A stretch of 64,000 nt of DNA from Isoetes taiwanensis (lineage: Eukaryota; Streptophyta; Lycopodiopsida; Isoetales; Isoetaceae). Location of the stretch: assembly GCA_021234155.1 (NCBI GenBank), contig JAJEKV010000099.1, forward strand, positions 240,560 through 304,559, written 5' to 3'. Made by a program: the position numbers and the translations under genes. The notes beneath the pieces were generated by a model. That model was not told the origin of the DNA and made no database searches. It was given only the letters and a program-made list of their open reading frames with translations. This document shows, one piece after another, positions 3,218-39,002 of the stretch (positions are counted from its first letter, which is position 1; every line of letters begins with the position of its first letter).

Positions 3218-3823
3218 TTTTTTTTGCAACACAAACCATTAACATCCAACATATAAAAATTAAATCCCCAACACATAACAACCAACACATAACAACCATT
3301 GACATTAACAATCAACACATAACTACCATTGACATTAATTAACACAACCATTGGGTCCAACACATTTAAAATTAAAATCCCCTTAAACCCCCTTTGGATT
3401 GGGTGCATATTCACCTGAGGGGGTGACTCAGGAACAACGTTGGATTGGATAGGCATATTGCCCTTATTCCTTAATCTATACCGGTACATAAAGTTCCTGG
3501 TTTGTGGGGTATGCAATTACAAAATTTGCTATCTTGTATAACAAGATTAGCAAAATACTATAAGATTTCAAGCGGAGAATACTATATGGTGTTGATTTCA
3601 GATGCGTGCAAATACAATTATGAAGGCTCATTTGCCCTCGCCACCCGTGTGAATATGCACTTAAGGGGATTTTAATTTAAATGTGTTGGACCCAATGGTT
3701 GTGTTAATTAATGTCAATAATGATTATGTTGATTGTTAATGTCAATGGTTGTTATGTGTTGGTTGTTATGTGTTGGGGATTTAATTTTTATGTTGGATGT
3801 TAATGGTTTGTGTTGCAAAAAAA
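3218..3823. repeat. Fold-back element with ~175-195 bp inverted arms
   Basis: The left arm (3218-3411) and right arm (3649-3823) are reverse complements over almost their whole length, with a few mismatches and a short indel near the inner edge. The spacer is about 237 bp. The arms contain many CAACACATAACAACC-type tandem units. The apparent minus-strand reading frame across the left arm is a by-product of these repeats. The structure fits a fold-back or MITE-like DNA transposon, or an inverted duplication. No flanking target duplication is obvious, so the class is uncertain. Confidence 0.8.
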
Positions 3824-4555
3824 CCCCTCCCGGGTGTGACAAAAAAACTTTAGAATTCAAACCAGAAAAAACTAGAATTCATTTGAGGCTTTCATCACCA
3901 GAGCTTTTTTGAATTTGATCACAATAAAACAAATAGAACATAAAGTAAAGATTTACCATAAAGATAGAGCAGATTGATCCCCTTATTCTGAAAGTCATAA
4001 AGTTTGCAACACAAAGAAAACCCCTTGTTATTATGCTACATATTGTTACTTCGCTACAACTATTTCTCTTTTCACAATGACACCATTGTTTATCAATCCG
4101 GATGATTTTATGCTCCATCTCTAGCTTAAAGGTAATGCATGATTCACCTTACGGTTTGATTAAAGTTCCAAACCTACAATCTAAATGCATTCTTGGCCAA
4201 TGTTTGGTGATCTACATTGACATGGAAAAGGGCGGAATAATCCGCTGTTATTGTGCATAAGAATCCATTTGTTGATTGAAGCTAAATCGGGCTACTATGA
4301 ACAATCCGTGCCGAGGAATATCCAAGAGTTGGAAGCAAACAGAGGGCCTAAACTTGAATGCAAGAAAAATCTTAGGAAGGAAACAAGGGGATTTTGCAAA
4401 GACTACATTGTAGAATCAGGGAAACCAATACCTTGTAAAAACCATTATGCTAATGAAGAAAACATTAAAAACAAATACCTTTGTAAGTGTGAGCAAAAAC
4501 TCCATCTAAGTGGTAGTAAAATCCACTCGGCAATAAGAATCAAGAGGGCAAGTAC
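3824..4555. other. No recognised gene
   Basis: AT-rich DNA with only weak open frames. The frame that starts near 4251 runs into the microsatellite and is not supported as coding. Confidence 0.4.
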
Positions 4556-4685
4556 ACATGCACATGCATACATGCACACATGCACTTGCACTTGCACTTG
4601 CACTTGCACTTGCATTTTGCACATGCACAATACACATGCATACACATGCACATGCATGTGCACATGCACATGCATGCATACGCAT
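4556..4685. repeat. Compound CACTTG / CACATGCA microsatellite
   Basis: Five near-perfect TGCACT hexamers (about 4580-4612) are followed by CACATGCA-type units. From 4630 to 4685 every base alternates purine and pyrimidine, without a break, for 56 nt. All six frames stay open here only because the repeat lacks stops, which creates several false open frames. Confidence 0.9.
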
Positions 4686-6650
4686 CAAATGTTCATGCAC
4701 AAACACATGCAGAGAAAGACAACAACCCTCGGATTGTTCCCACCAACAAAAATCAAGCATTTGCCTATAAATGGTGCACTCTAGAAATACTATTTAGTAC
4801 ACCTCAAGCTAATACAACAACAACGAAATCATAGAAAAACCATGTGAAAAGCCGATATAAAAATCTAAAAGTAGCCTGATTGTTATTGTGCTACATATGG
4901 AGCATAATGGAATGGCAGCAAGATCTCTCCAAGGTTTCTTTTTCCTTTTCACTCATTCATTCACAAGGTCATGGACACCTCATATGAATAACAAAAGATA
5001 AGAAATACATGAGTAGGCCAAATGGGCACCAGATAACTTAGATCCCCTTATTCTAAGCGTATATAAAGCTAGCCCATTTTTCTAATGATTAAAAACATCT
5101 TTGGAGTCTCTTCCACACATTCATGCTTGCATTTAGTTTAGTCTCGCTTACAAATGTCTCATAGACCCAAAGTGGTCTCGGTAGATGTTAATATAATCTT
5201 TCTTTGTCTAAACTACTTTTCTGTGATGCTGTCGCGGTATCAATATATAAGGTAAATGCAGGATTCTAGATGATGCATTGGCATGATTTAAGAAAAAATG
5301 CAAACATAACAATGTCATATCAATATACTTGTTGCAATAAATTGCTTCAATTTAAAATTTTCATTAGAATAACACACAACTTAATTAGATTCAAGGCCAA
5401 TAAAAGTGGGTACCAAAATACTATCCACAATAAGTAAAATTTTAATAATAAACACCCAAATTCCAAAATGCAAAGATATAGAAAATGGCGTAGTTCATCA
5501 AGAATGGCACACAAAGGCAAGGAGATAATAGAGGAATGGGTACCATGGTTCTACCATAATATACCTCAATTCAAATAGAATCAAAAAATCATGATCGGGT
5601 CCAATTCAACTTATAATTAAAGCCATGGATAACAAATGGAAATGCTATGGCAGAAGCAACCAAAGAAAGCTATGACCCGAGTTATCAAATATCAAGAAAT
5701 CTAGACATTAAAAAGAAGACAAGTAAGATCACTTATCCGGAATGGTATAAAATCTCCTCTCTTTTAAGTTGAGAGAAATAGGACAAAGGAGAAATGCACT
5801 TTGTTACTTGCCAACATATAATAGATCCCTGTGATGCTTAATATTTCTGCTCACCACGGCTGCAGAACTTGATATAACTATTCCCCGAGCCCAATACTTT
5901 GCTCGGCGACTCTTTTTTCCCTTTCCATGCCTTGACGTTTCTAATTCTTGAATGCATTGGCATGCTTTCCAAAGATAAACCATGTTAGAAGTTGCATTGT
6001 AAACTCCATACTTGTTCTATAGTTCTCCTTGAAAATTGTCTCAAAGAATGTAAATATTTGAGTTTTGGCCATAAATGTGGTAGTGCGTCTTTGGAAAAGG
6101 CGGCCCAATCTCTTCTTTTTTCCCGGTTCTACGTGAGAACATGAATCGGGGCTGGATGCTCACACCGACAGAAAAAATAATCCCCAAAAGAGGGTAAAAC
6201 TTTATCCGGATGTGGCCAGTATCAAATCCTCACGCCCTCATATTTGAAGCTTTAAATTCAAGAAGAATAGAAAACTACAAGAATGCAGCCTCTGGCGAGG
6301 ACAACTTCACATATATGAAGATGCTTCTTTCTCATTTGGCGATAATTTCAAACATTGATTTGCTAGAAAAGGCCGTAAAAAGCATGGCAAAAACTAAGGC
6401 ACGTAAGAGGCGAAATGAGGGCTCTGTTTGAATTTTAAACCTAAAGTATGGCAACGCGAAAAAAGAATAATGAAAAAGGAATCGTCGAGGAAAATAGTTT
6501 GGACTCGAGGAAATGCCTCCTCGCTGCACGTAGGTGAGCATGGGCTGGTGATTTTTCAATAAGACTCCGCACAGTGCGCGCATAAAAAAAAAACCGCCGA
6601 ATCCAAGGACCAAAATAAGTTAAAAAAACTATCCTAAAACGCCATTATTA
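4686..6650. other. No recognised gene
   Basis: Nearly 2 kb of AT-rich DNA with frequent stops in all frames. The frame at 6210-6431 has no recognisable domain and I do not call it a gene. Confidence 0.4.
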
Positions 6651-6764: not shown

Positions 6765-7374
6765 GGTCATTTTTCCATTTACCCATTTTGCTCCATATGT
6801 TTTATTAAGATTTCTTTTTTTTAATTCGGCCTTCTTTTATTCTTTAACCTCTTTAATCGTCTTGGTTCATCTCTTTATTTACCCAGTTGCTCCAGTTCTT
6901 TATTTGTCCTTTCAATTTAGTTTAACCTCTTGAAACCCCTTATTTGTTCTATTTGGCCCTTGCAGTCAACCTGATCTTGGTTACTTTGTTCTTTTTTATC
7001 CCATTGATCGCGCTGTGCCTTTCATCTCCCTCACTCATTCCACGTCATTTGCTCCATGCTTGTTTCGCCATCTATTCTTTTCTAACTTCTATTTGTGCCA
7101 TTGGTTCCTTTTTCTCGCCCCTTTTTCTCAGTCTCCTAGCTTGCTCCATTCGTTTTATTTTGTTCTATATTTATCCATTTGCTCCAGTTCCTCATTTGTC
7201 CTTTCTTTTCGATTGTCCATTTTACCTCTTTGATCATTTTAGTTAATCTATTCCTTAATTGTCCATCTCCTTCGCTTGTTGGCTTGTTGTTTTCCGCTTT
7301 GCCTTGGTTCCCTTGGCCCTCTTGATGTCCATATATCATAGTTTCGCCCTTTGCTCTGATTATTTTGATTGCTG
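6651..7374. repeat. T-rich low-complexity tract with T33 run
   Basis: A GATA/TATC near-palindrome (about 6656-6684) is followed by 33 uninterrupted T (6731-6763) and about 600 bp of pyrimidine-rich sequence with many TTTGCTCC, TTTACC and CTCTTT words. The open frames here are Phe/Ser/Leu-rich artefacts. The T run could be the reverse-strand poly(A) tail of a retroposon, but no coding sequence supports that. Confidence 0.7.
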
Positions 7375-7380
7375 TGTTGG

Positions 7381-7411
7381 GGTCTAAGTTAGATATTGGG
7401 GTACAAAAAGC
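7381..7411 (+). repeat. Left terminal inverted repeat
   Basis: Thirty-one bases, reverse complement of 14458-14487 except for one extra A in an A run. Preceded by TGTTGG (7375-7380), the proposed target duplication. Confidence 0.85.
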
Positions 7412-7666
7412 GAGAAGCGGAAGCGAGAAAACGCAAAGGCGGTGCGGGGACACGACTTTTCGATTCAGCGCCTTTTCGGCGAACAATGATTTTGATTGTC
7501 AGAGGTGTAAGTATTCGCGCCCATTGTTACTAATTGAATTGTACAGGCCAATTTGCTCCTCGATTGCACTTCGATTCCGGATTTTACAAATTGAATCATC
7601 CTCTTCAAGGCGCTTTTGTTCGACCTCTTTGTTTCTTGCTACTTTTTTAAACTATCTTCTTTTCTC

Positions 7667-8900
7667 ATGGCTGGTGAAGGAATCATCCCACAAAGAAAAG
7701 CTGAAATGGTTTATGGAAAATGTTTTACTGATGATCGAGCAGTGTTTGGTGCGAGCCAATGGTTTCGTGCAAAATCAAAATCTACTTTGTTAAGCCCTTA
7801 TTTGAAGAAGTAAATTGGATGGCTTGAACGATTTCTTGTATGGAGATGGAGGTGTCGAATAATGAATTGAGGAAGCTAGTAGCATTATCATTTGCATGGG
7901 AAAAACTGTAGTCGGGCAGAGCATAACCTTGAGGCTCATAGGGTTGATTGGGATGCTTACAAGAACGGGTTAATGTTTGGTCCGGGAGAAAAAGGGATGA
8001 CATTGATGTTAAAAAAAGAAGATGTTAAAAGGATCAAAAATGAGTTCCTTCATGCCAAAAGTACACCAGAAGCTTGGCGTGATCAACACCTCAACTTGAA
8101 TTTTTGGGGAAAGCAGGTCTTTCTTCCGAGTTTTTCGTTTCCAATTTAAGTTTCAACATTTCTTTGATTGAAGAGGAGGTTAGTAAGTTGAAAGCGATTT
8201 AGACTCAACCTGCATAACCGATCGGTAAAAATAATTAGTACCATTGAGGTAGATAAGAACTCTTTAGCAAGGGAAGAGAGGATGATTGAGCTTGGAAGGA
8301 ACGAGATAGCAAGAATGGAGACGAGTTGTCCGCTTTGAATGCCAAAGCTGATAAGAATGATGGAGACACGGCGATTGAAGAGTTAAAGGCAAAAATAAGT
8401 GGTGAAATATATTTTGCTCTAAACTGGAGGCTTGCCTTCCAAAGGTTAGTGTTGAAGCATTACAGGAGAAGGAAAAGAAGGAAAGATTAAAAACTTCTTT
8501 GGAATTGCATTCTGAGAAAGGTGAAATATTTAGAAGTCGGTAGACAATTGATGGACTCAGATATATCAAAAATGTCTATCATAACTGAAAAAGCAGGTTG
8601 TCTGGTTTCATGGAAGATGCATGTCTTTGCATGTGGATTGGTCTTCAATCCAAAATATAAATTGAGTATGGCATTACCATGTGAACATGTCTATCACTTG
8701 GCATGCTGCATGCTTTTGTATGAAAAGAAGACATGCTTGTGTGCTTGAAGGAAGTTTTGTGGAAGTTTTGTGGAACTTGGTCTAGAGGTTGCAGTGAAGA
8801 AGACTTGATTCAGTGTGCGATTGCATTTGAGGTAGGCACTAGTAGTGCATTTGCTTCACGATAAGTTTTTCCAGTCTTGTTACACTGGTGGTTTCACACC
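7667..8900 (+). pseudogene. Transposon-borne gene: coiled coil and Cys/His finger
   Basis: A frame opens with MAGEGIIPQRKAEMVYG at 7667 and continues in broken pieces. They include a charged stretch at 7892-8149 (EKGMTLMLKKEDVKRIKNEF), a heptad-like coiled-coil stretch at about 8230-8520 (REERMIELGRNEIARMET), and a Cys/His-rich segment at 8600-8750 with ACGLVFNPKYKLS, PCEHVYHLAC and CLCA. The last resembles a RING/PHD-like zinc finger with the spacing seen in some moss and fern transposon-linked proteins (from memory). Stops and frame changes separate the parts, although some may be introns. It lies just inside the left repeat and points toward the middle, so it is probably the 5' part of the element's plus-strand gene. 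Function unknown. Confidence 0.45.
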
Positions 8901-9178
8901 ACCTTTATTATTTAATAAAACTGTGGCACTGTTGCTTCACCCGCTTCCGAGTCACCAAAAATGTTGTATCTATGTGATCGCTCAAGTGTCACCAAGTCCA
9001 AGAAGGAAAGTCAGTAGAAGCTTTTTGAAGGTAAGACTTTGATATTTCTTATTTGTGTTTTTAACTAACTTAATCTCATTTAAATTGATTTGTGTTCTAA
9101 GCAAAGAAAGTTCGTAATTCATTTTAGTAAGGGGCCAAAGAAAAAAAAGGATAAAACGCTCACGTGTTGTTGAGAGCA

Positions 9179-9560
9179 GCTGAGGGAAGAATATTATGAA
9201 CAACCCGCGGCAAAAGGTTCCTGCAATTGGCATAAAGACCAGGTTGAGGAGTGCAATCAGGAGAAAGTTCTATCATTGCTACCAGATGTTCACGTAAGGA
9301 TGATGAAGAACAAGCAAATGAAGATGATGTTGTTCTTTGCAGCTTGTCAAGATGTCTTTGAGAAAGATAAGGATAAGGGTGCAAAGAAGCTTGAAATGGA
9401 GGTAGCAACAACAAAGAACAAAAAGAAGATTGGGAGACCCTCAAAGAAGCCACCTCAAGCACCAAAGCAAATAGGTGATCAAGTTGATATTATTTTGAAA
9501 ATGTTAAATGGTAGTTCAGTTCGTTTCTCAAGATATCAAGTCATTGAGTTAGTTTCGTAA
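9179..9560 (+). CDS. AT-hook-containing exon of the transposon plus-strand gene
   Basis: An open stretch follows a plausible acceptor (TTGAGAGCAG at about 9169-9178). It reads EEYYEQPAAKGSCNWHKDQV, continues through an acidic-basic stretch, and reaches KKKIGRPSKKPPQ (about 9420-9465). That segment matches the GRP core of an AT-hook, which binds the minor groove of AT-rich DNA. A donor-like GTAAGA lies at about 9030, giving an intron of about 150 bp upstream. It ends at a TAA at 9558-9560, which could be a true stop or a missed donor. Its neighbours, the finger segment upstream and the phosphatase domain downstream, suggest one multi-exon gene. It is called as an exon, not as a complete protein. 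Confidence 0.4.
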
Positions 9561-9761
9561 CATAACATATTGTGGTGTATGTGAAATAATTGTTTTACTT
9601 GTTTTATGTTGTTTGAGAACATTGTTTGAATGTAATTTGGTTTTCTTTAATTAATCACCGTGAACCTTTAATTGTTTTTTCCGCTTTAATATTGTAATTT
9701 TCAGAATTTTTTAATTGTTGTCATGTTGATGTTTAAGATTCTTTTCTTATGAATGTTGCAG

Positions 9762-10620
9762 AGGATTTAGAAAAGAAAAAACTTGTCATCTTAGACATTA
9801 ATGGAGTTTTGGTCAACACCTTCCAAAAAGGAGCAAGATTAAAAATTCCACCCGTGGCTCAAGAAGCATTACACACGCCAGAAAAGTGGTTATTTGCGAC
9901 CTTTTTTTACAAGAGTTCTTGGATTGAGTTTTGAAAGATTTGAAGTTGGGATTTGGTCTAGCATGATGAAGCACAACATCATACAAATCCTTAATGAAGA
10001 TTCTCGCCAAAGACACTACATTGCTAAATTCAAATTCATATGGGGTCGAATGAGTGTGAGGCAATGCCTTTTATGTTTCCGTGCAATGCAACCAAACTCA
10101 GATTTATGAAGCCAATTGTCAAAGTTTACACAGCTTTTAATGATGTACATGTGATGTTGTGCTTGTGGATGACTCTTTGTACAAGACTTTCTTGTCCCCA
10201 CCTGCACACATGTTTAATAGTTGAGAGCTTTGACAATGAAGAAAATGATAAGGTATTCAACTACCTTAAAGCATGTTTGCACACTTGGCTTCATTCAAAG
10301 AATCCTCAAAAGTGGTTGCACCAGCAGCTTCATGTTGATGTGGTCAAGGAAGTAGACATCAACAACATACTCAATCTTATCGTTGACCACTTGAAAGAAC
10401 TTGCAAGATGGAGAGTAGCAATTGAGGGAAGCATGCAATTGGTGAAAGCTATTGTTGGTGTTGAAAAATTGGATGAACATGCAAAAAAAGAAGACATAAC
10501 ACGATTCTCCATAACCGACACGAAACACATTGAAGCTAATGATCGACCGCCATTGCAGATACCGATAAACAGGAGGAAACTGCAAGAGAAGAAATAACAC
10601 AAGATCAGACCCACATTGAA
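9762..10620 (+). pseudogene. NIF/FCP1-like (HAD) phosphatase domain inside the transposon
   Basis: The reading KKLVILDINGVLVNTF gives the DxxGV(L) aspartate loop of the FCP1/SCP (NLI-interacting factor) branch of HAD phosphatases. After a frame change comes FERFEVGIWSSMMKHNI, the conserved WSS motif. A further frame change gives VDDSLYKTF (about 10165-10190), the third HAD motif, then a C-terminal helical region (KACLHTWLHSKNPQKWLHQQ). FCP1/SCP enzymes dephosphorylate RNA polymerase II tails; whether this copy ever did is unknown. At least two frameshifts make it a pseudogene unless introns hide them. A tract like TTATGAATGTTGCAG just upstream could be its splice acceptor. It sits between transposon ends and is transcribed toward the transposase-like gene. 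Confidence 0.65.
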
Positions 10621-11049
10621 GATGCTGACTTTGAGAACATTGAAGATACCGGACTTTAAGAACTTCATGTAACTTTAAGATGTAACTTAAGTTATAACAA
10701 CCGCTTTTTTGTGAATATCGGATATGAGTACATAGTCAGACACTTTTGTAACGTAAACGGATATTAATGTAAATCCAATGTTTCGTGCATTTACCTACAC
10801 TTGTGTACACTTGTAAACTTTCAACTGCTTTTCCATGTCCATCAAGTCCTGCTTTTCCGTAAGTTCATCAAGTTCCGTAATAGTTAATCGAAAACATAAA
10901 GCATGTAAGCGCATTAAAGCATAAGTATGAAAAGGTAATCCATCCGAGCTTTTTTTTTTAAAGCCGTGGAGGACAATGAACATTTAAAAAAGAAAGAATT
11001 TGTTAGTTTTCATTGATAACGAATTATAAAGAATATAAGAAAGAATATG

Positions 11050-14000
11050 GCAGGAAAGAGCCAGTGTACATCTAAAAACTCAACTTCTGCTTCTTCGAAG
11101 CAAAAGCAGAAAAAACGGGCAGCAGAATTAGCACTCTAGTGGAAGGGATGCCATAACTTTTTGGCATGTCTCTTCACTCATCTTGAAAATGTTGTTACCA
11201 AGATTCTTCATATCAAACTTCACCTGTCTGACAAGGTGGCTATACAAACTAGCAACCGGCTTGTCCAATAGCAACTCAAATTGAGTGCATCCGCTTGTTT
11301 GTAGTAATGGCTTAAACTATAACTTCTCCTACACCAAATGCAAGACCCCAAGCATCTTCATATGCATCTAACAATGTGTGTTTAGTCTCTCAGACACCTA
11401 AAAACATAAAAGTCAACTCCCTCTTCATCTTCCTCGATGTGCATTTTAACAAAGTTATCTCCAACTTCTAGAAGAGAACTAAGGTAATCTACTTCTTCAT
11501 CTTCTTCTTCTTCATCTTCTTCTTCTTCCTCCCCGACTAATTGTTGTGGATGTTTCTTCAAAGAACCTTTGGTTTCGGGGCTCATTGGAGCCATGCTCCC
11601 AAACGTGTTTTGTTCGCGGCAAGAATCCCTTTTACCATGAAAGCAATAGGAACAATAGCAAGAGAGGCATCTCAGAAGCAACTTTGCGGTGGTTCTTTTT
11701 GTCACATGGTCCGATGCAATGAAGTTTAGAGCTCCCACATAGTGTTTTCCACTCCTTCCTTTTCAGATTTGTCTACATTTTGGGGATCAATATGCCAAAA
11801 GAACCTCGCAATATAAAACAGATTCATGCAACTTCAAATCTAAGAAAAATATAAAAAAAAAAGAATTTACCTTCTTATATGAGGGTCGGGTGGATTGTTC
11901 ATCATGTACCGCTTCATGAAATCGACAATGTCTTTGGCACGCCCAATTTCCGTGACTCATACTTCAATTGCTCTCTTGCCAAAACCCTTTTCAATATTGC
12001 ACCTTGTCCATCATGTTCTCCTTTGCCATGAGAACTGCAAAGAAATTCCACTCATACTCAATTCCTCCACTACACACATAGTTCCTTCCTAAATACCGTA
12101 AAGGCCTTGCTCCTTTAAACTGGGATGTGCAACCATCACTCCAAAAATATGTTTCTTGTACTCAATGTTATGTGCTCTAAGCCACAAAGATGTACTTTCA
12201 AGCAATGTTGTACAAACTCGTGGCTATGCTCCCTGTCATCCAAATATAAAATTGCACTTCCTTTATAATTCTCCTCCCGATTGGTGCCGATGATCTCCTC
12301 GACTTGTCTTCTTCTTTCTTTTCAGCTTATCCCGCCTCGCTTTCTTTGCTCTCGCCTTTTAACTTCCATCTCCTCTATCTCAATTTGGGTTGTATGTCTA
12401 TATGTGATATGAACCGCAATTGAGGTCTGGTCCGTGGTGCTGGCAAGATTGTGCCTCCTCCTCAATTTTAAAACTGTAATTTTCAGCAAAGTCAATTACA
12501 GACAATTGCATCTTCGTGAAAGGTATCCAAACACGCCCCGAATTGCTTTTGCTCGCCAGTTGTGCCACATAATTGTGTGTGACAAATTGTACCATTGTCT
12601 TGTTGGCATGCTTCATGAACTCGGCGTACTCTCGCTCTTGTATGCAAGTCTTGTTACTTTGGTCGGTTTCCTCCCTCCCATTTTTTTCTTGGTAGTCTCC
12701 TTCATGTATCCAACTTCTTGTCGATTTCGCATCATGAACATTTCGTCGGCTTAGTTTGCGTTTGTTTAAAAAGAATGTTAAACGAAAGCACAATTTAATT
12801 AAACCAAACAGTAATACCTTTTCAAACCTGTTTCCACTCCACTTTGTAATCGGTTTTATCTTCTCCTTAGGACAAAAGCAAACCTGTTTATAACACCACA
12901 ATTAAAGTTAATGAAAGAAAGAATATCTTTCATAACATTGAAGAGACAAACTTAAGAGTACCTTTTCAGCCCACAATCTTTGCATGCCAACCGCATTACA
13001 TTGATGTTTGTGCCATTCTTCATCTTCTTCTTTAGGGCGCACCATTTGCCTCCAAAAATCACTAGTGGATTTATAAACATGGTTCTTGGCACTACGTGGT
13101 TACCATCACCACAAAAAGCACAATTACAATTGCATTCTTTGTGCACCCCATTTGATCTGTTTCGATTTTGTTGAGTGCTTGCATCACATACTCAAAGTGC
13201 ATGTGATATTTAAAAAGAATGTGTGTCTCTTTCTTTAAACGCTTCACAAAAGATGGTTTCAAGAATTCAAATGTGCTACCGGAAATCTTCATTTCATTGA
13301 ATTCCTTTTGAATGCCATGTAAAATTGCAACTATAAACAAAGCGTAAATACGAGTTCCAAAAAATTAAAAGCAAAGAATATAGTAAAGCGTAACAAGCTT
13401 GTAAAACATATAAAGCATAATAATTACTCGAGAAATTTCAAGCAGCTTGTATTGATGATCAATTTTTTCACCATCTTTTGTAACAAACTTTCTCACATGC
13501 TTCCCTCGTGATGGTGAGACTCTTGTGTTTTCTCGGTCGTAACTTGTAAACGTAATTTTAACCTCATCGCTTATTGCATCCCGATCTCTTTTTCCTTGAA
13601 AAACATTGACCCACGGACCACATTCTTGTTCTCGCCATTACTCTTCTTTCCGTTGTTCGCGAAAAAACAGATTTTCTTGATACATGAAGGAGGCGCGGGT
13701 AACCAGACGGTGGTTGATTTTGTTTGTCGTTGAAGATACCATTTGCAATGTGGACTTTCTTGCTTGCATTATATCCCGCCTTCCTTAGTTTCTTTTGTTG
13801 ATTGAGTGTCTCTTGAACATTTCTAATTACATTCTTCATGACCTTGCTTTTGATCATGATCAACAAAATCCACCTCCAAAGGGCAATTTCTTTCTTCACT
13901 CTCTTCACAAACTGCACCACCAGTGCCTTATCCCCTTCTTTCAAAGGCTTTTGGATATTATTGAAATAATCGCCCAAATTCTGGACAATTCTTGAAGCCT

Positions 14001-14163
14001 TCTCGCACTCAAGCCACCGGCCAACTTGAGGGATGGATATTTTCTTTCTCCCTCTCCCTATCTCTTTTCCTCTGCCTAGATTGCCTTCTTCTCTCTCGGC
14101 TTGAATTTCCCGGAAAATTTGAAGTCGCTTTTCTTCATCTAAATCTGATGCTGATTGATCCAT
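11050..14163 (-). pseudogene. Transposase-like gene with DFAENY / WSDG-QFK / HGKG-DG motifs
   Basis: The gene probably starts at ATG 14163 (MDQSASDLDEEKRLQIFREI) and runs leftward. Recognisable blocks in order are: a basic N-terminal region (14163-13564); KPSFVKRLKKETHILFKYHM (about 13255-13195); a Cys-rich patch (about 13140-12960); FMKHANKTMVQFVTHN (about 12635-12588); IDFAENYSFKIEEEAQS (about 12500-12450); WSDGCTSQFKGARPLRYLG (about 12150-12090); EYEWNFFA then SHGKGEHDGQGAILKR (about 12055-11985); a Cys-rich and acidic C-terminal part (11738-11382). Together they match, from memory, a large and poorly named protein family found in animals, mosses and ferns. The Asp residues of DFAENY, SDG and HDG could be a DDE-type catalytic set; that is inference. 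A donor at about 11870 (AGAAGGTAAATT, minus strand) indicates real introns, but several frameshifts remain. Confidence 0.65.
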
Positions 14164-14457
14164 TTAGAATCGTGTTGTGCATAGAATTGTGTTGTACAGA
14201 GAAACCGTGCTGCACAAAGAAAATTCTGTTCAGGGGTACAACACCGGATCATGCTTCCCGCCATTGCCAAATCTATTCACTCTCCATGCCATCTCACAAC
14301 AACCCCGCCAAATTGATTCTGTACCGAATTTGATTTTGCGGGTAGCCATGTCATCGATCCGGAAGCAATTTGCTAAAAACGGATCATCGCGTTCCCGCTC
14401 TCCAAGCACCTCCAAGCACAGCGGACCAAGCACGAAAAGCAGCGCGTCCGGACGGGT

Positions 14458-14487
14458 GCTTTTGTACCCCAATATCTAACTTAGACC
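14458..14487 (-). repeat. Right terminal inverted repeat
   Basis: Thirty bases, reverse complement of the left end, followed by TGTTGG (14488-14493). Confidence 0.85.
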
Positions 14488-14493
14488 TGTTGG

Positions 14494-15740
14494 CCTTGCT
14501 TCGCCAATTTTTTCTTTATTGTTCTCTTTGCCTGATTTTTTCTAGTCGCCCCTTTATTTTTCCTATTTTTCCTTTGCTTCACTTTTGCCATATTTTTCCT
14601 AGTTTGCTCATTCCTGTTGAGGTAGATTCCTCTTCTATCGGCCAGTTGGTTGTATCATAGGACCCATCCTAAGGAATGCCCATTTCTTGATTACGTCAAA
14701 GGATCATGTTAGAATTCATATGTTGTTAGGACTGGGCTATATCAAATGATCCTCCTCATGTTGGAAATGATCTAAGTTTTTTTTATCATTTAGACACCAT
14801 TTATTGAAACGATGCTCTCAATGCCGAGCTACTTGCACGTGCCTTAGCTTCACTTGGATTATGACCGAGCACAATCTTATGTCGAGCTGTTAAAAAGAGA
14901 GCTATTTGGAGTTTTCTAACTTTCCACTTCTGAGCAACAGACTGACAATTTGGCCATCTTCCTGCATGCTGCAGAGTGCTATTTTGAAAGAAGGGTTACA
15001 AGGAGGCCTTCATGTTCAGCCATGTAAAGACCTTAAATGCTGGCTCGGGCAGGTAGTTGACCCATTTCCAGGTCACAGGCGGTCAAACAAGACAAAGCTT
15101 TCAGCAAAGACAAGAAGGCACAATACATTGTAGCATATCAGTGGAAAATATTCTACCGCCTTAATCGGCATCCTTAGACATTTTAGAGAAGAGTGTTACA
15201 CAAACCCTTGCAACCTATAGGAGGTAACATCTCCTTTCAACAATGGGTACAACATATTATAACCATCATTCAATTAAATTGGGATTATGTCTTGATTTTG
15301 GGACAAATTTCATATTGCAAGTTTTTTAGTAACTTGATTAAAGTCACTATACGTTAACATATAATCACACACCTTAATATAAATTCACACCTTAACTTCA
15401 AATTACAAAATCATATATCATGAAACTCAAGTAGTACACAACTTTTATTAACTGTGATTGATACATAGTAACTGTTTTTCATTTTTCCACCAGCATCCCC
15501 AAGGATATGAGAACCTTATTCCTTACATCCTAAGGTATTGTAACTCTCATTTGTTTTACTTGGAATAGTTTTGGAGTCCACGAGTACAATACAGCTTTCA
15601 ATGTTCAGCCAAAGATCATGACCACTAGGATTTCTCCTCCACCCTTTGTCCAACAATCTAAATATCTTTCTTTATCAGTGACATTACTCAACTGATGTAC
15701 TGGACACCACTATTCCACGCGCACCTTATTGAAGTTAACA
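14494..15740. other. No recognised gene
   Basis: Starts with about 160 bp of T-rich sequence resembling the other flank of the transposon, then AT-rich DNA. An open frame at 14906-15133 has no recognisable motif. Confidence 0.4.
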
Positions 15741-18384
15741 TCACCTTCTTCTTTGCAAATATCCAAGATAGTGTATCCCAACCACAATGGATAGGTCTGC
15801 TGTGGTTTTTACTACAAATTGGTGGCACTCCACGCCTTGAGAAGGTTCATAACAATCTATGCCTAGATATTTTGGTCTATCCTTCTTAGGACCAACATAG
15901 TGTTTATTAGATTGAGGAGGAGCATATGCCTTCACAATGCTACTAATGGTACCATCATCTTCACAAGCACAGCCTAATGTTTTCCACTTACTTTTAGGGA
16001 ACCACCCTTCTTTCAAATTTTCCGAGGATGTGTCTACCTCATCCAACAAGTTGATCACCTTCTTCCAATAATCTATCAATGCACGATTAGTCTCATCTAA
16101 ATTAGTTTGCCAATGCTTGATGTAGTCATTGATGCCATCCTTAGTCAATCCCAATTGCTTGACTTCTTGGTTGGTTTTAGAGCTTTTGGTTGACCGTGAG
16201 GTATCATAGGCTTGCCATTTGCATCCTTTTGCCAAATTTTTGCCCCACCTCTCCACTTCTCCTCCTCGAAGGTCTCATTTTCCATTGCATGATTGGAATC
16301 CCTTCTCTCACCCAAAAGTGAATTGAAGAGGTCTAGAATGACCTTCCATGTCGAGAGCATAACCATCCACAAAACTCTTCCAATCGTGCACTTCTTCTAT
16401 GAGAGATCCTATAGGAGATGGATTTGTACATCCATGAAATATTTCCAATAGCCCGGGAAAGTTGGTAAATCGTCATTGCCTCAATACATGACTATATTTT
16501 CCAAACAATGCGTCCACATCCTCATGAGTATGTCTGGGCATTAGGAACCCCAAATTGACTCTTTCAAAAATACCCATAGGTGTTAAGTAGGATAGGAAAG
16601 AAAACATCCACCTGTTCTTATTTTGACCAAAGACAATTATCTAGTTGCAAGAGAGGCTTTCGGGCAGATCTCGAGGTTAAGCACGAGATGTTGAAGCTCC
16701 AACATGTTCATTAGGTCCATTACTCCTAAACCTTGCCTTGCTAAACTTTTCAATACTATTAGGGGTTCCATCCAACAATGCACTATGTAGTGCCTGGCTA
16801 GCTATAGGATCCTGGAGGTGACCATTGTAACCTTTATCATAATTTCTTAAACACCTCATGATACTCCCAATGTGAAAATCTGGACCATCACTCCACAACT
16901 CTAAACCTAAAACGACCATAGTAGGTCCGGAGATCGCCCATGCAATATTGCCCCGCCATTGAAATCAAAGGAAAGGGTATGATCTTCCACATGACTTAGG
17001 AATGTACTTTGAATTGTGGAAGACAAGTCTTCTCTGTTGGTCCATTTTATCATGTATAAGACATAGATAGTATTAGGTTCCATTGCGTATAAGGTCCTCC
17101 ACATCCAATAAGTTGATCTACATGATAGTTGATCCTGTCATATGGTCCTTCATATGTTCCCTTATCTTTGCCCTTAGACTTGGTTGTACGCCTTATCTAG
17201 TATCTCCTTCCTTTAACACATAAATTGCACTTGGCAAAGTTGTTTGAAGTTGCTATGGTCACATGCTTGAAATGCTTATTCCTTAGCCTACTAAAACTGG
17301 CTGGGATATAGAGGCCACCCAAGTTCCCAAGCAATGCATTTATTTCCTCTAATATGCTCTTCCGGGTACAATGGGATGGCAATCTCTTTCAACAATAACT
17401 CTACCCCCTGTTCATCCTTCTTACTCTTATGTGGCATGTTTTTCAGATTGAAATCCACATATCTTTCAAATATTTCCTTTGCACTATAGTTCTGAGGTAG
17501 GCCTTACTGTGCCGCTGTTCCCATGCAATGCAATTTTACTACCATTTTCATGTCTCTTTTCCAGTTGTGCCAAGAAGAGGTTGGAATTCCATGTATAGCC
17601 ATCCATGCTTTTGAACATATCCACTTTCCATTCAATGGGAATCTTTTCTTCTTTGATCTTTCATCCCGAATTGCATAGCCAAATATGGTGTACATGAAAT
17701 TCCTCCCGCTATCACACTTATGTTCCCGATATGTAGCTCTTGCTACCACCATCTCCTCTATTGTGAACATTCTAATACTGTGAGGCCCAACAACATTCAC
17801 TTCCTCTAACCTTCACTGTGGCTTCGTGGAGAGAACAATCATAATCTGACTTGCATCTTTTGGTGGGATAATGTTTGAAAGTTGGAAGTGGCCTCCTGCT
17901 ACACTCCAGGTGAACATTATTGACAATGGTTCTACATCTATAGGAAACATGTAGTTCCCTCCAGTTGAATATTGTCCCTAGGCCATGCAACAATAGTTGG
18001 AACCTCTAGTTGCTTCACACAAGCAAGGCATTCTTGTTTGCCTGAACCCTTTTCCTTCCAATTGTCATATAATTTTGAGATTGCCACACCTAACCCTGTC
18101 CTCCCCTAATCTTTCATCATTCAACGCATTGATAGGATTTGCTAGAACAATAATCCCTTCTCCCATCGCCTCTCTGTATGCATGCATGGGATCTTGACCT
18201 TTTTGTTTTTCCAATCTAACCCGAGTATAAAGTACAATTTCCTTTCTTTGGCATCATCCTTTTCATTTCTCGGTCTTTTCCTTTCCTTTGCCATCATCTT
18301 TGTCATCTTCATTAGTTGGGAATTTTTCCTTGCCTTGATCAAAGATCATTGGGGGCCTTGGGGATTTAGCATTTTGCATGCCAT
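15741..18384 (-). pseudogene. DUF7869-type transposase-like gene remnant
   Basis: Reading leftward: a Lys-rich start (18342-18142), then KWICSKAWMAIHGIPTSSWH (about 17625-17560), resembling the 'VCRKAFLxxxGI' block before this domain, then HVTIATSNNFAKCNLCVKG (about 17260-17205), then EDHTLSFDFNGGAI (about 16990-16945). A DN, split by a one-base shift from FGQNKNRWMFSFLSYL (about 16640-16590), gives the DNxxGQNKN signature. It is followed by FLMPRHTHEDVDALF (about 16545-16500) and a C-terminal part to 15741. GHTHxDID after QNKN marks the family Pfam lists as DUF7869 (from memory), widespread in plants and animals and often taken as a transposase. A stop follows the HTHED block (about 16480) and there are several frame changes. 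No terminal repeats were found for it. Confidence 0.7.
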
Positions 18385-20799: not shown

Positions 20800-21731
20800 G
20801 TTTGAAGCGGAAATCTACCTTTAACCCCATGCCCGGATTCGGATATGCCTATCTTTGTGGACCCCGAGAACGTTGAACACATTTTAAAGATCAACTTTCC
20901 GTAATTATCCTAAAAGGTATTCATAGTTTACCTCATCATTTTTTAGTTTCAATTGTGGTCATTTGGGATCTAATTCTAATTGATCTATCAATTAGGGAGA
21001 ACAATTTCATGAAGTGATGGAGGTTCTTTTAGGTGATGGCATTTTTAATTCTGATGGAGAGCTCTAGAGAAGACAAAGGAAAACTGCTAGTTTTGAATTT
21101 GCATCTACGGTTTGAGAGATTTTTAGCACACCGGTATTAGGAATTATGCTATAAAAGCTCTCAAGCATTATCCAGCGTTCAATTGCAAGAGAAACTACAT
21201 TTGACATGCAGGTAAGGAGACATTTTACCCTAAATCTGTCTTCCAAGTCCTTATACTAAAAAAACTTTGATGCCAATTTCATGTCTAATGTTAAAATTGA
21301 CCAAGTCTATGTCAATTTCATCATCTAAGTTTTGTATGAACAATTTACACCAATCTATTCATCTTATCCTTGATTTGCAGGACCTGTTTATGCGCATGAC
21401 CCTAGACTCTATATGCAAGCTTGGATTTGGAGTTGAAATAGGAACTCTGTCTCCATCGCTTCCAGAGAATCCATTTGCAATTGCATTTGACAATGCAAAT
21501 GCCATTGTTACACAGATATTTGTGGACCCTTTCTGGAGAATCAAGCGCTATTTTAACATAAACCAGGAAGCATTACTCCATAAGAGTGCAAAAATTGTAG
21601 ATGAATTCACCTACAAAGTGATCAGAACAAGAAGGGCAGAGATTGAAGCAATTAAAGCCATGTCTCTGCATAAAAGTGGAGTCTCGGGAAATAAACTAGG
21701 TAGGGGGATATTAAACCTGAAATTATGTTAA
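20800..21731 (+). pseudogene. Cytochrome P450 (CYP704/CYP86-like) pseudogene, 5' part only
   Basis: The reading DPENVEHILKINFP (about 20858-20900) is the typical N-terminal block of CYP86-clan fatty-acid hydroxylases. An intron is followed by FHEVMEVLLGDGIFNSDGEL (about 21007-21065) then a TAG where the family has Trp, and RRQRKTASFEFAS. A donor GTAAGG at about 21212 and acceptor TTTGCAG at about 21380 lead to DLFMRMTLDSICKLGFGVEI (21381 on), then IFVDPFWRIKRYFNI and HKSAKIVDEFTYKVI. These enzymes omega-hydroxylate fatty acids in cutin and sporopollenin synthesis, in the ER. The oxygen-binding helix, ExxR and haem-Cys loop are absent downstream, so the gene is truncated after roughly half its length and has at least three stops. 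Confidence 0.75.
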
Positions 21732-35816: not shown

Positions 35817-36580
35817 TCATCCCCATCTTGGCTAGCCTCTTCAATAGAACACTTCAAGGAGGCGTTTTATGGGTCCAAAGGGGGACTTCAATTTTCCTCC
35901 GTCTTGTTTACATGTACTCAAAGTAAAGGTTAGGCCTAAAGGGATTAGATGGGCTTGATGAAGAAGACTAGCAACAAGCTTTATTGTTGAGACAATTTGC
36001 ACAATATGTGGCAAAGGAGATAATGTCAAGCTTGTATGGGACAAAGGTGTAAAGCTAGAAAAACTTGCTAGGAGTGGTCTATGCCATGGAAAGGAAGGAT
36101 TTTATATGGTTACCTTTGAAGGTCTAATTTAATGTATATGTAGCTTTTTCGGGCATTTACAAAACTGTAGATTACATCATTAGCACATATAGTTATATGG
36201 TATTCAATGTGTGGCCAAGGTTTTGCTAAGCTAGGGCTTAACTCCCTATGGTCATGCTCTCTTCAGATTTCAGTAGACTTCGCTGAATCGTGTATGGCAA
36301 TGATAAAAGCATGGAATGTCTAATTACACCAGCATTCTCTCCCCGAATTACGTCAAACGGCAGCTGCAGCATCCTCCTCCAATTGCTGCGTTCGAAAAAA
36401 AAAGTAAGTGTTGCTAGTTTCCATTTTTTGTGTAGGATCACTCAGTTTAGTTATTATTTCTGGTGGCCAGACTTATGATCCCTCAAGTTCGGTATCCCTC
36501 GATGGAGGAGGCCCCATCAGGTGTGAGAATGAATTTCGAACACTGCAAATTTCTCTTCTACATAATCACTATCTTGATTC
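35817..36580. other. No recognised gene; possible 5' region of the PPR gene
   Basis: Only weak frames. The frame at 36408-36580 does not look like a PPR or targeting peptide and may be 5' leader of the gene that follows. Confidence 0.3.
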
Positions 36581-39002
36581 ATCAGGCTTTATGAAGAAGT
36601 TAGAAAACAAAAATGGCTGGATGATGCACTTAAAACAGCAGAGACTATGCAGAAGCAGAGAATTTCCATATCCAAAGAGCACGTTTATGGCATCTTGCAG
36701 GAATGCAGTAAGCAGAAATGCTTAAGGCATTCTAGAAAAGTGCAATTTCTAATTATCCATACTGGAATGAATTCCTTTCCAATATTCTCCGACCAGCTTA
36801 TACGCTTATTTACTGTTTGCGAAAGATTGGTTGAGGCAAATGCAGCATTCAATGAAGTCTCCATACCGAGTTTATACACCTGGAGTGCCATTATCACAAC
36901 CCATGCCAGGCTTGGTGAAGGTGAGATGGCATTTATTTTGTCCGATAGGATGCTAATGTCAGCTTCAAAGGGCAATAAATATGTTTATCTTGCAGTCCTT
37001 AAAGCATGCACCTTTAGATTAGACATCTTCTATGGGAGACTTATACATAATCAGATTATTAAAGATGGAATCCACCTAGATGTTGTCATAGGAAATACTC
37101 TTACAAATATGTATGCCAAATGTGGAAGCTTAGATGAGGCAGTCAAAGCCTTTGCTGAGATTCCAGATCCTGATGTGTCATTATGGACTGTAATGATAAC
37201 TGGATTTGTACAGCATAGCGAAGGTATTTTGGCCTTGAACTGTTTTGAGGACATGCAAATCCGAGGCATACTTTTAGACAAGGCAGCATTTTTGAGCATC
37301 CTTAAAGCATGTGGAGTCATTGGTAACATTGCACAAGGGAGGCGTATCCATGAACTAGTTGTTGGAAGTCCATTTCAGGCAGATATCATTGTTGGAAATG
37401 CGCTCATAGATATGTATTTTAAATGTGGAAGCTGGGAAGGAGCATATAAAGTATTTGTTGAGTTGTCAAACAAAGATGTGGTATCATGGAGTGCAATGAT
37501 CACTGGGTATGCGGAGCATGGGGAAGGCCTTTTTGCCTTGGGTTATTATCGAATAATGCAACATTCAGGCATAAGTCCAGACAAATTCACCTTTTCGAGT
37601 GTGTTGAAAGCCTGCGGAAAAATTGGTGCCATCAGGTATGGCAGGCACATTCACAATCAAATTGTTACAAATGGGTTACACCTTGACCTTATTGTAGGCA
37701 ACTCACTCATTGATATGTATGCAAAATGTGGGAGCTTGGGTGAAGCACATGAAGTCTTCAACAAATTGATGAACCGAGATGTTATTTCGTGGGGCGCAAT
37801 GGTTGGTGGATATGCTCTCCAAGACGAAGGTTTCTTAGCCTTAGTTTGTTTCGAGGAAATGCAGCAGGAGGGTGTTAAACCAAATGAAGCCATATATTTG
37901 AGTGTACTAAAAGCATGTGCAAAGGCGGGGCCATAGGATTTGGCATGCATGATCCATGAGCAGATTATTGAAAGTAAGCTTTCTTTTTGAACTTTCTGTT
38001 GGAAATACATTGATTGATATGTATACTAAAATGTGGGAGCCTGAATGAAGCGGGCAAAGTCTTTAAAATCTTGTAAACCGAGATGTGGTATCATGGGATG
38101 CAATGATATTTGGTTATGCTCAACTTGGTAATCTCACTTTGACTGAACAGTGTCTTCAAGCAATGCAACAAGGAGGCATTAACCCATCTAACATGACATT
38201 TACCAGCATTTTCTCAGCTTGCAGTCATACAGGGCTCGTGGAACAAGGCCATAGGTACTTCAAATCTATGAGAGAAATCCATGGTGTCACCCCAGACATC
38301 TACCACTGTAATTGCATGGTTGACCTCCTTAGTCGTGCAGGATATTTGATGGAGGCATGTAGCCTACTTCAAATTGTCAAGATGGACATTATTGGATGGA
38401 CATCTCTGCTCACGGCTTGCAGAACATATGGAAATGTACAACTTGGAAGCAAATGTTTTGATCACATTAGACATTTGGATCCATTATATGCGGCTGCCTA
38501 TGTAATCATGTCAGGAATCTATTCAGATGCTTGCATGTGGAGAGATGCTGCAATAATTGAAGAGCTCAGGCAATGTTCTGGTGCTTGGAAGAAACCTGCG
38601 AAAGCATGGATCGAAGTTAACAACACACTCCATGAATTTTCACCTCAAGACAAAACACACCCACAAATTAATGAAATTTCTCTGATGCTGAGACGGCTAA
38701 CTGACAGGATGAAGGATGAAGGATACATTCCAGAAACCGACTTAGTTTTGCGCCAAATATCGACTGAGGAAAAGGAAGATATTTTATCTGGGCATTGTGA
38801 AAAATTAGCCATAGCTTTTGGCCTTCTTAGTACACCTGGGGATACGATCATCCGAGTTACAAAAAATTTACGTATTTGTACAGACTGTCATAAAGCAACC
38901 AAACTTATCTCCAGGACAGAGAAAAGAGAGATTATAATAAGGGACTCTTACAGGATACATCATTTCAGTTATGGATCATGTTCTTGTGGCGATTATTATT
39001 GA
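36581..39002 (+). pseudogene. PLS-class PPR protein with E and DYW domains, frame interrupted
   Basis: Proteins of this class bind organelle RNA, and the DYW domain deaminates C to U. The first block is open from about 36584 to 37933 (ATG at 36647; upstream in-frame LDDALKTAETM also looks like protein). It holds about ten PPR units, such as VVIGNTLTNMYAKCGSLDEA and DVVSWSAMITGYAEHGEG. Shifts at about 37,922-38,084 break one and a half motifs (MIHEQII, VGNTLIDMYTK). The second block (38085-39002) carries RDVVSWDAMI-type and HCNCMVDLLSRAGYL motifs, the E domain, then DYW with HCEK and CTDCH keeping the zinc and catalytic HxE residues. It ends CSCGDYY, not DYW. Long intact frames suggest recent decay, or that a few base errors separate it from a working gene. 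Confidence 0.8.

Follow-up and report, generated by a model that had tools for sequence, protein, structure and literature searches.

A degraded DNA transposon of Isoetes taiwanensis with a predicted DDE transposase and a NIF domain gene that recurs across transposase lineages

A 64,000 bp stretch of the Isoetes taiwanensis genome (contig JAJEKV010000099.1; referred to here as the window) contains a degraded element of about 7.1 kb in which a transposase-like gene on the minus strand converges with accessory genes on the plus strand, among them one with a NIF (NLI interacting factor) domain of the FCP1/SCP type of haloacid dehalogenase (HAD) proteins. This raises the questions of whether the locus is a genuine transposon, and why such an element would carry a NIF gene. 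We find that it belongs to a repeated DNA transposon family. The reading we favour, with a probability of about 0.6, is that it is a decayed DNA transposon copy encoding a predicted DDE transposase and, on the opposite strand, a NIF protein found again in diverse lineages of the family and probably of use to the element.

A repeated transposon family with 4 bp target duplications

The inverted repeats at the two ends of the element (7381–7408 and 14460–14487) match perfectly over 28 bp. The end repeat has two matches in the window at up to three mismatches, with none expected from 100 shuffles, and neither the ends nor the element itself occurs again elsewhere in it. The left 100 bp was searched against the host genome (1.658 Gb in 1110 contigs, the search space of all own-genome searches described here), yielding 40 scored matches among 253 candidates, and 20 of the 40 were fetched as 10 kb stretches. 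A partner end is present in 13 of the 20, at spacings of 3.3–8.4 kb (6.8–7.4 kb in nine of the 13); at one locus, L013, the left end alone is visible. The NIF gene is found in 18 of the fetched copies, the transposase core in 17 and both in 16. Retention of the NIF gene in full-length copies, a check proposed in a preliminary description of this DNA, is borne out, as 12 of the 13 two-ended copies have both genes; the exception, L016, keeps both ends, lacks NIF and is reduced to 3.26 kb by an internal deletion, and is likely a non-autonomous form. That the repeats are a chance pair flanking unrelated genes is ruled out by these 13 two-ended copies, of which 12 enclose the same genes, and we assign it a negligible probability.

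The same description noted TGTTGG beside each end, which is indeed present on both sides, and took it as a 6 bp target duplication. Comparison of 16 complete elements (the 13 two-ended copies, the window element, L029 and L032) gives a different register, with an exact 4 bp duplication in 13 of the 16 and a single mismatch in the remaining three, and with exact duplications of 3, 5 or 6 bp in none; a 6 bp duplication is thereby ruled out. The window element and L011 descend from a single insertion event, so that the independent exact 4 bp duplications number 12 of 15. The two are colinear and 91.4% identical over 10,159 bp, flanks included, L011 lying in a duplicate stretch at C908. The outer ends of other copies read GGGTCTAAG...CTTAGACCC, in an outer-base alignment frame of GGG...CCC; base 14488 is T in the window and C in 14 of the 16 elements. 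TGTTGG thus occurs on both sides because GTTG is joined by a terminal T and a chance G. The ends had been put at 30 bp; they are the well-matched pair described, 29 bp long counting one outer base beyond the perfect 28 bp arms. L032 is a complete element with a different 30 bp end and the duplication TGAG, and no convincing inverted-end pair was seen in the fetched stretches of L030, L033, L034 and L035. Terminal inverted repeats and duplications of fixed length, here found across many copies, are the marks of a DDE/DDD cut-and-paste transposon.

In the reverse complement of locus L036 a 32 bp inverted repeat of CAC/GTG units (about 585–616 and 6812–6843) flanks a NIF–transposase pair, and may be the terminal repeats of that lineage, or else simple repeats.

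A transposase with a predicted integrase-type core

The minus-strand frames contain all of the motifs originally reported for them (DFAENY, WSDG..SQFK and HGKG..DG..GA..KR), and a search found 22 relatives at E≤1e-3, the best at 6.2e-35. In the window copy both genes are interrupted by frameshifts and stops, and the three motif aspartates fall in three different frames. They correspond to D224, D308 and D349 of the relative P0001, in whose predicted fold (mean pLDDT 77) the first is on strand 1, the second follows strand 4 and the third opens the helix that comes after strand 5, the correct places for the three acidic residues of an RNase H-like core. The transposase is therefore predicted to have an integrase-type core with three aspartates, the kind of fold for which the preliminary description had suggested looking, and structure prediction of the relatives also suggests a C-terminal BAH-like domain.

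The assignment to an unnamed family also holds, now within a real transposon with inverted ends. None of the Pfam models matches the transposase above its cut-off, and the Pfam integrase models gave no match up to an E value of 1 for six relatives (P0001, P0008, P0013, P0015, P0016 and P0022); the transposase of locus L035 matched the IFT80 propeller model at 2.3e-4, below that model's cut-off. A transposase profile searched against PDB sequences returned a single chain, Spindlin-1, at E 0.64, with no integrase and no Mos1; a fold search of BFVD returned nothing at E≤0.001, and no relatives were confirmed in viral contigs or in contigs of prokaryote genomes. The present core accordingly has no sequence match to retroviral integrases or the Mos1 transposase in Pfam (up to E 1) or PDB, and its last acidic residue is Asp. 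A predicted protein of Klebsormidium nitens, P0013, fuses leucine-rich repeats to the transposase, and is either a fusion made by the gene model or a copy that has been domesticated.

In the open literature, with subscription papers and Repbase Reports outside the search, no published account of a DDE transposase with DFAENY or HGKG motifs was found. The Sola superfamily makes 4 bp target duplications, a length like that seen here; the likeness is one of duplication length, and Sola is not known to carry a NIF gene. These are eukaryotic DNA transposons in three groups, Sola1–3, according to one account (PMC4455052), and another gives 4 bp duplications also for Ginger1 (PMC10045372). For Ginger, IS3EU and IS481EU, the comparison consists of the Pfam integrase models, which found nothing in the six relatives. 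Dada elements, as described in their report (PMC3706591), are several kb long with an intron-bearing DDE transposase, features common to the present element; however, they have 6–7 bp duplications and insert into small RNA genes, and Dada-U6 and Dada-U1 lack terminal inverted repeats. By these features, the 4 bp duplications and 29 bp inverted ends found here rule out membership of Dada; Rfam returned nothing at gathering scores.

The accessory genes and their NIF domain

The convergent plus-strand gene had been credited with a finger and a phosphatase domain. The NIF domain is confirmed, as the window read-through matches Pfam NIF at 3.2e-10, and open frames of about 250–310 residues occur in several other copies; five open frames match at 2.8e-12, 5.4e-16, 2e-14, 1.3e-16 and 3.7e-18. 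The finger is RING-like only, with Pfam E values of 0.0073 at best, then 0.012, 0.017 and 0.18, all below the cut-off, and no match in L035. Accessory gene 1 has longer open frames in L023, L027, L029, L032 and L033. The full accessory read-through, used as a query, gave no match at E≤0.01 among 7993 candidates scored.

NIF accompanies the transposase across divergent lineages

Searching the host genome with the NIF protein of locus L020 gave at least 142 matches, with identities down to 40% (132 of 4961 candidates scored). Two loci picked by their NIF, L029 and L031, are 59–66% identical in NIF and about 70–80% in the transposase core, and keep the arrangement of accessory gene, NIF and convergent transposase; it is also unchanged in L030, likewise picked by NIF, at 39% identity in NIF and 51–69% in the core, depending on the stretch. 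A search with the transposase gave at least 144 matches (135 of 8900 candidates scored), and to avoid selection by NIF four loci were chosen from this list. NIF is present in three of them, L032, L033 and L034. The fourth, L035, has a 570-residue open transposase frame and a RING-like gene (at 2–1006 and 3676–5385), and no NIF in the stretch fetched, the gap between the genes holding unrelated-looking frames. Weighing against a general association is the fact that L032–L034 form one clade, with cores 72–88% alike, so the transposase-chosen sample is effectively one lineage with NIF and one without. A Cucurbita NIF protein, searched against the same genome, had 131 scored matches out of 3466 first-look candidates, with identities of 30–40% and mostly with open frames; two loci chosen from these have NIF with a convergent transposase (L036) and NIF with a transposase fragment (L037). 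Outside close groups, the transposase cores of the NIF-bearing lineages are 34–62% alike.

By listed positions, a NIF place lies within 12 kb of at least 49 of 133 transposase places, where about 0.24 pairs are expected by chance, and pairing is concentrated among the best transposase places (31 of 37, versus 18 of the other 96). This pairing took 123 of the 142 NIF rows listed and 133 of the 144 transposase rows listed, those left out being apparent second pieces of one place. NIF and core identities among six loci are correlated (Pearson r 0.82, a value reached in 5 of 720 permutations, the identity permutation counted), the six containing two close pairs, with pieces joined by hand and with the first row taking NIF from L020 and the core from L026.

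These patterns bear on the possibility that several transposon lineages captured NIF separately, making the association convergent rather than ancestral. The missing NIF in the fetched L035 stretch fits such captures, as do the low NIF identities between distant loci (24–39%). There is also a precedent, as a study of fungal DNA transposons (Kojima 2025, PMC12730594) describes several lineages with a TET/JBP dioxygenase gene, transmission between lineages, and a proposed escape from silencing. Those elements resemble ours, so far as that study describes them, in keeping an enzyme-type accessory gene, and differ in that here the domain is NIF (FCP1/SCP-type), the genome is that of a plant, and the role of the gene is one that we infer. 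However, the NIF-bearing loci that were read share side, strand and order, and the distance tables of NIF and core agree, albeit for only six loci with two close pairs; we regard separate captures as unlikely. In the open literature (Repbase Reports again lying outside the search), looking for a link between NIF and a transposase returned only an unrelated title.

Apparent constraint between lineages and decay within the subfamily

Ratios of nonsynonymous to synonymous substitution rates (dN/dS) were compared between copies with open frames only. Against L029, NIF gives 0.22–0.24 (Nei–Gojobori; three comparisons with one sequence in common), the core 0.18, and the coil/RING part 0.09–0.18; between L026 and L030 the core gives 0.13, and NIF is saturated in comparison with L030. 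Within the subfamily of the window element, two pairs of open NIF frames give 0.63–0.83, and over 16–20 copies the nonsynonymous-to-synonymous ratios are close to 1 for both NIF and transposase, and 0.67–0.86 for the coil part, so that no selection on NIF or transposase is seen among copies of this subfamily. Copies decay once inserted, while the deeper lineage looks constrained.

The near-neutral ratios inside the subfamily are what would be expected if NIF were a passenger that an ancestral element took from its host in a single capture and that has had no use since, and a plant NIF protein of host type with the same motif I variant exists (P0023, below). A passenger is nevertheless hard to reconcile with the open NIF frames of L029 and L030 at 39–64% identity to L020, the low dN/dS against L029, the strong Pfam scores of the five open frames and the correlated divergence of NIF and transposase, and we consider it very unlikely. 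The term cargo does not fit either, if it is taken to mean a recent load. Since NIF recurs in lineages with cores 34–62% alike and its dN/dS against L029 is low, the gene is no recent capture; a recent one-off capture is ruled out by the presence of NIF at deep divergence in L029–L031, L032–L034 and L036.

What the NIF protein may do

The catalytic motif of active phosphatases is DxDx(T/V), and the second aspartate of this motif I is the general acid in HAD phosphatases. In all seven NIFs read at this position (L020, L029, L030, L032, L033, L036 and L037) the first aspartate is kept and the second is Asn (D-x-N), so the catalytic motif is absent from them; motif I of the L034 NIF was not found. 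The later aspartate pair is DD in L020, L029, L030, L033, L034, L036 and L037, and VD in L032. P0023 is of the same kind (D-I-N). A profile of three transposon NIFs and P0023 found one solved chain, UBLCP1 (3shq), at 1e-7. The transposon NIFs resemble UBLCP1 and P0023 in a Pfam NIF match that spans nearly the whole domain, and the first motif I aspartate is common to all; UBLCP1 differs in having D-I-D where P0023 and the transposon NIFs have Asn, and the NIF studied here is transposon-borne. Because the general acid is replaced, activity could be weak or absent, and to judge from these residues the protein may have little phosphatase activity or may instead bind phosphoproteins. The earlier suggestion of an RNA polymerase II tail phosphatase finds no support, given this substitution and UBLCP1 as the one solved structure found by sequence.

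One way in which NIF might serve the element is within transposition itself, for example assisting the transposase or the repair of ends as a cofactor, rather than on host regulation. Consistent with this, the loci read have NIF and transposase in convergent orientation, with correlated identities. Yet the sole solved relative found, UBLCP1, is presumably a protein phosphatase, going by its name, and L035 seems to manage without NIF; a role in transposition is thus improbable in our estimation. We instead favour a NIF that acts for the element on the host, perhaps against silencing. In the scheme we propose, the transposase would excise the element and insert it with a 4 bp stagger, its BAH-like domain steering it to marked nucleosomes, and the NIF and RING-like proteins would act on a phosphorylated host protein, by binding it or by removing its phosphate, with the RNA polymerase II tail, a proteasome factor or a silencing factor as candidates; as a result the element could be expressed or its transposase could persist. 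More tentatively, and with the odds rather against it, these transposons could form an undescribed plant superfamily with a transposase that reads chromatin by means of a BAH domain, in which an ancestral NIF (pseudo)phosphatase and a RING-like protein disarm host silencing or control by the proteasome, which would be the first NIF accessory system of a transposon.

Accessory genes kept under selection by transposons offer a rare view of what limits transposons in their hosts, and the recurrence of NIF with one transposase family in lineages that lie far apart suggests that some phosphorylated target in the host is important to the element. A BAH-like reader on the transposase, if real, would parallel the chromodomain integrases. 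With many open copies in one genome, both ideas are directly testable. There is also a risk that annotation mistakes transposon NIF genes for a host phosphatase family, because the Cucurbita NIF protein has 131 scored matches and both loci opened from these adjoin transposase sequence; many of the matches may thus belong to transposons and not to a family of host genes.

Features of the element and its surroundings

Table 1. Positions in the window of the ends, genes and domains of the element.
Feature	Position	Strand	Remarks
Left target duplication, GTTG	7376–7379	.	Register giving exact 4 bp in 13/16 elements
Left terminal inverted repeat, GGGTCTAAGTTAGATATTGGGGTACAAAA	7380–7408	+	40 scored genome matches to left 100 bp
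Decayed accessory gene 1, in several frames, with N-terminal part, coiled coil, RING-like finger and basic stretch	7668–9557	+	Frame reading
RING-like finger	~8612–8775	+	Below Pfam cut-off
Basic AT-hook-like stretch	~9390–9460	+	GRP motif among Lys, by eye
NIF (FCP1/SCP-type HAD) domain, decayed; motif I LDINGVL	9762–10656	+	Either a second accessory gene or the final exon of accessory gene 1
Decayed transposase gene with apparent introns and with frameshifts	11134–14163	-	Convergent with accessory genes; relatives by search
Transposase C-terminal part	11137–11470	-	Equivalent to predicted BAH-like domain of relatives
Predicted DDE core	12010–12493	-	Asp codons 12491–12493 (DFAENY), 12135–12137 (WSDG), 12010–12012 (HGKGEHDG)
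Right terminal inverted repeat, outermost base T	14460–14488	-	End comparison
Right target duplication, GTTG	14489–14492	.	Same register as left side

A repeat encoding a DUF7869 protein adjoins the insertion, at 14493–17282 in the window and 8453–9388 in L011 (Pfam 1.3e-34 on the L011 flank). Further along the window, two features indicate a land-plant host: an open frame at 21234–21728 (plus strand) matches cytochrome P450 at 1e-6, and a DYW-type pentatricopeptide repeat gene lies at 36578–38999 (plus strand) in two open frames of 452 and 311 residues, with a match to Pfam DYW_deaminase at 1.4e-37.

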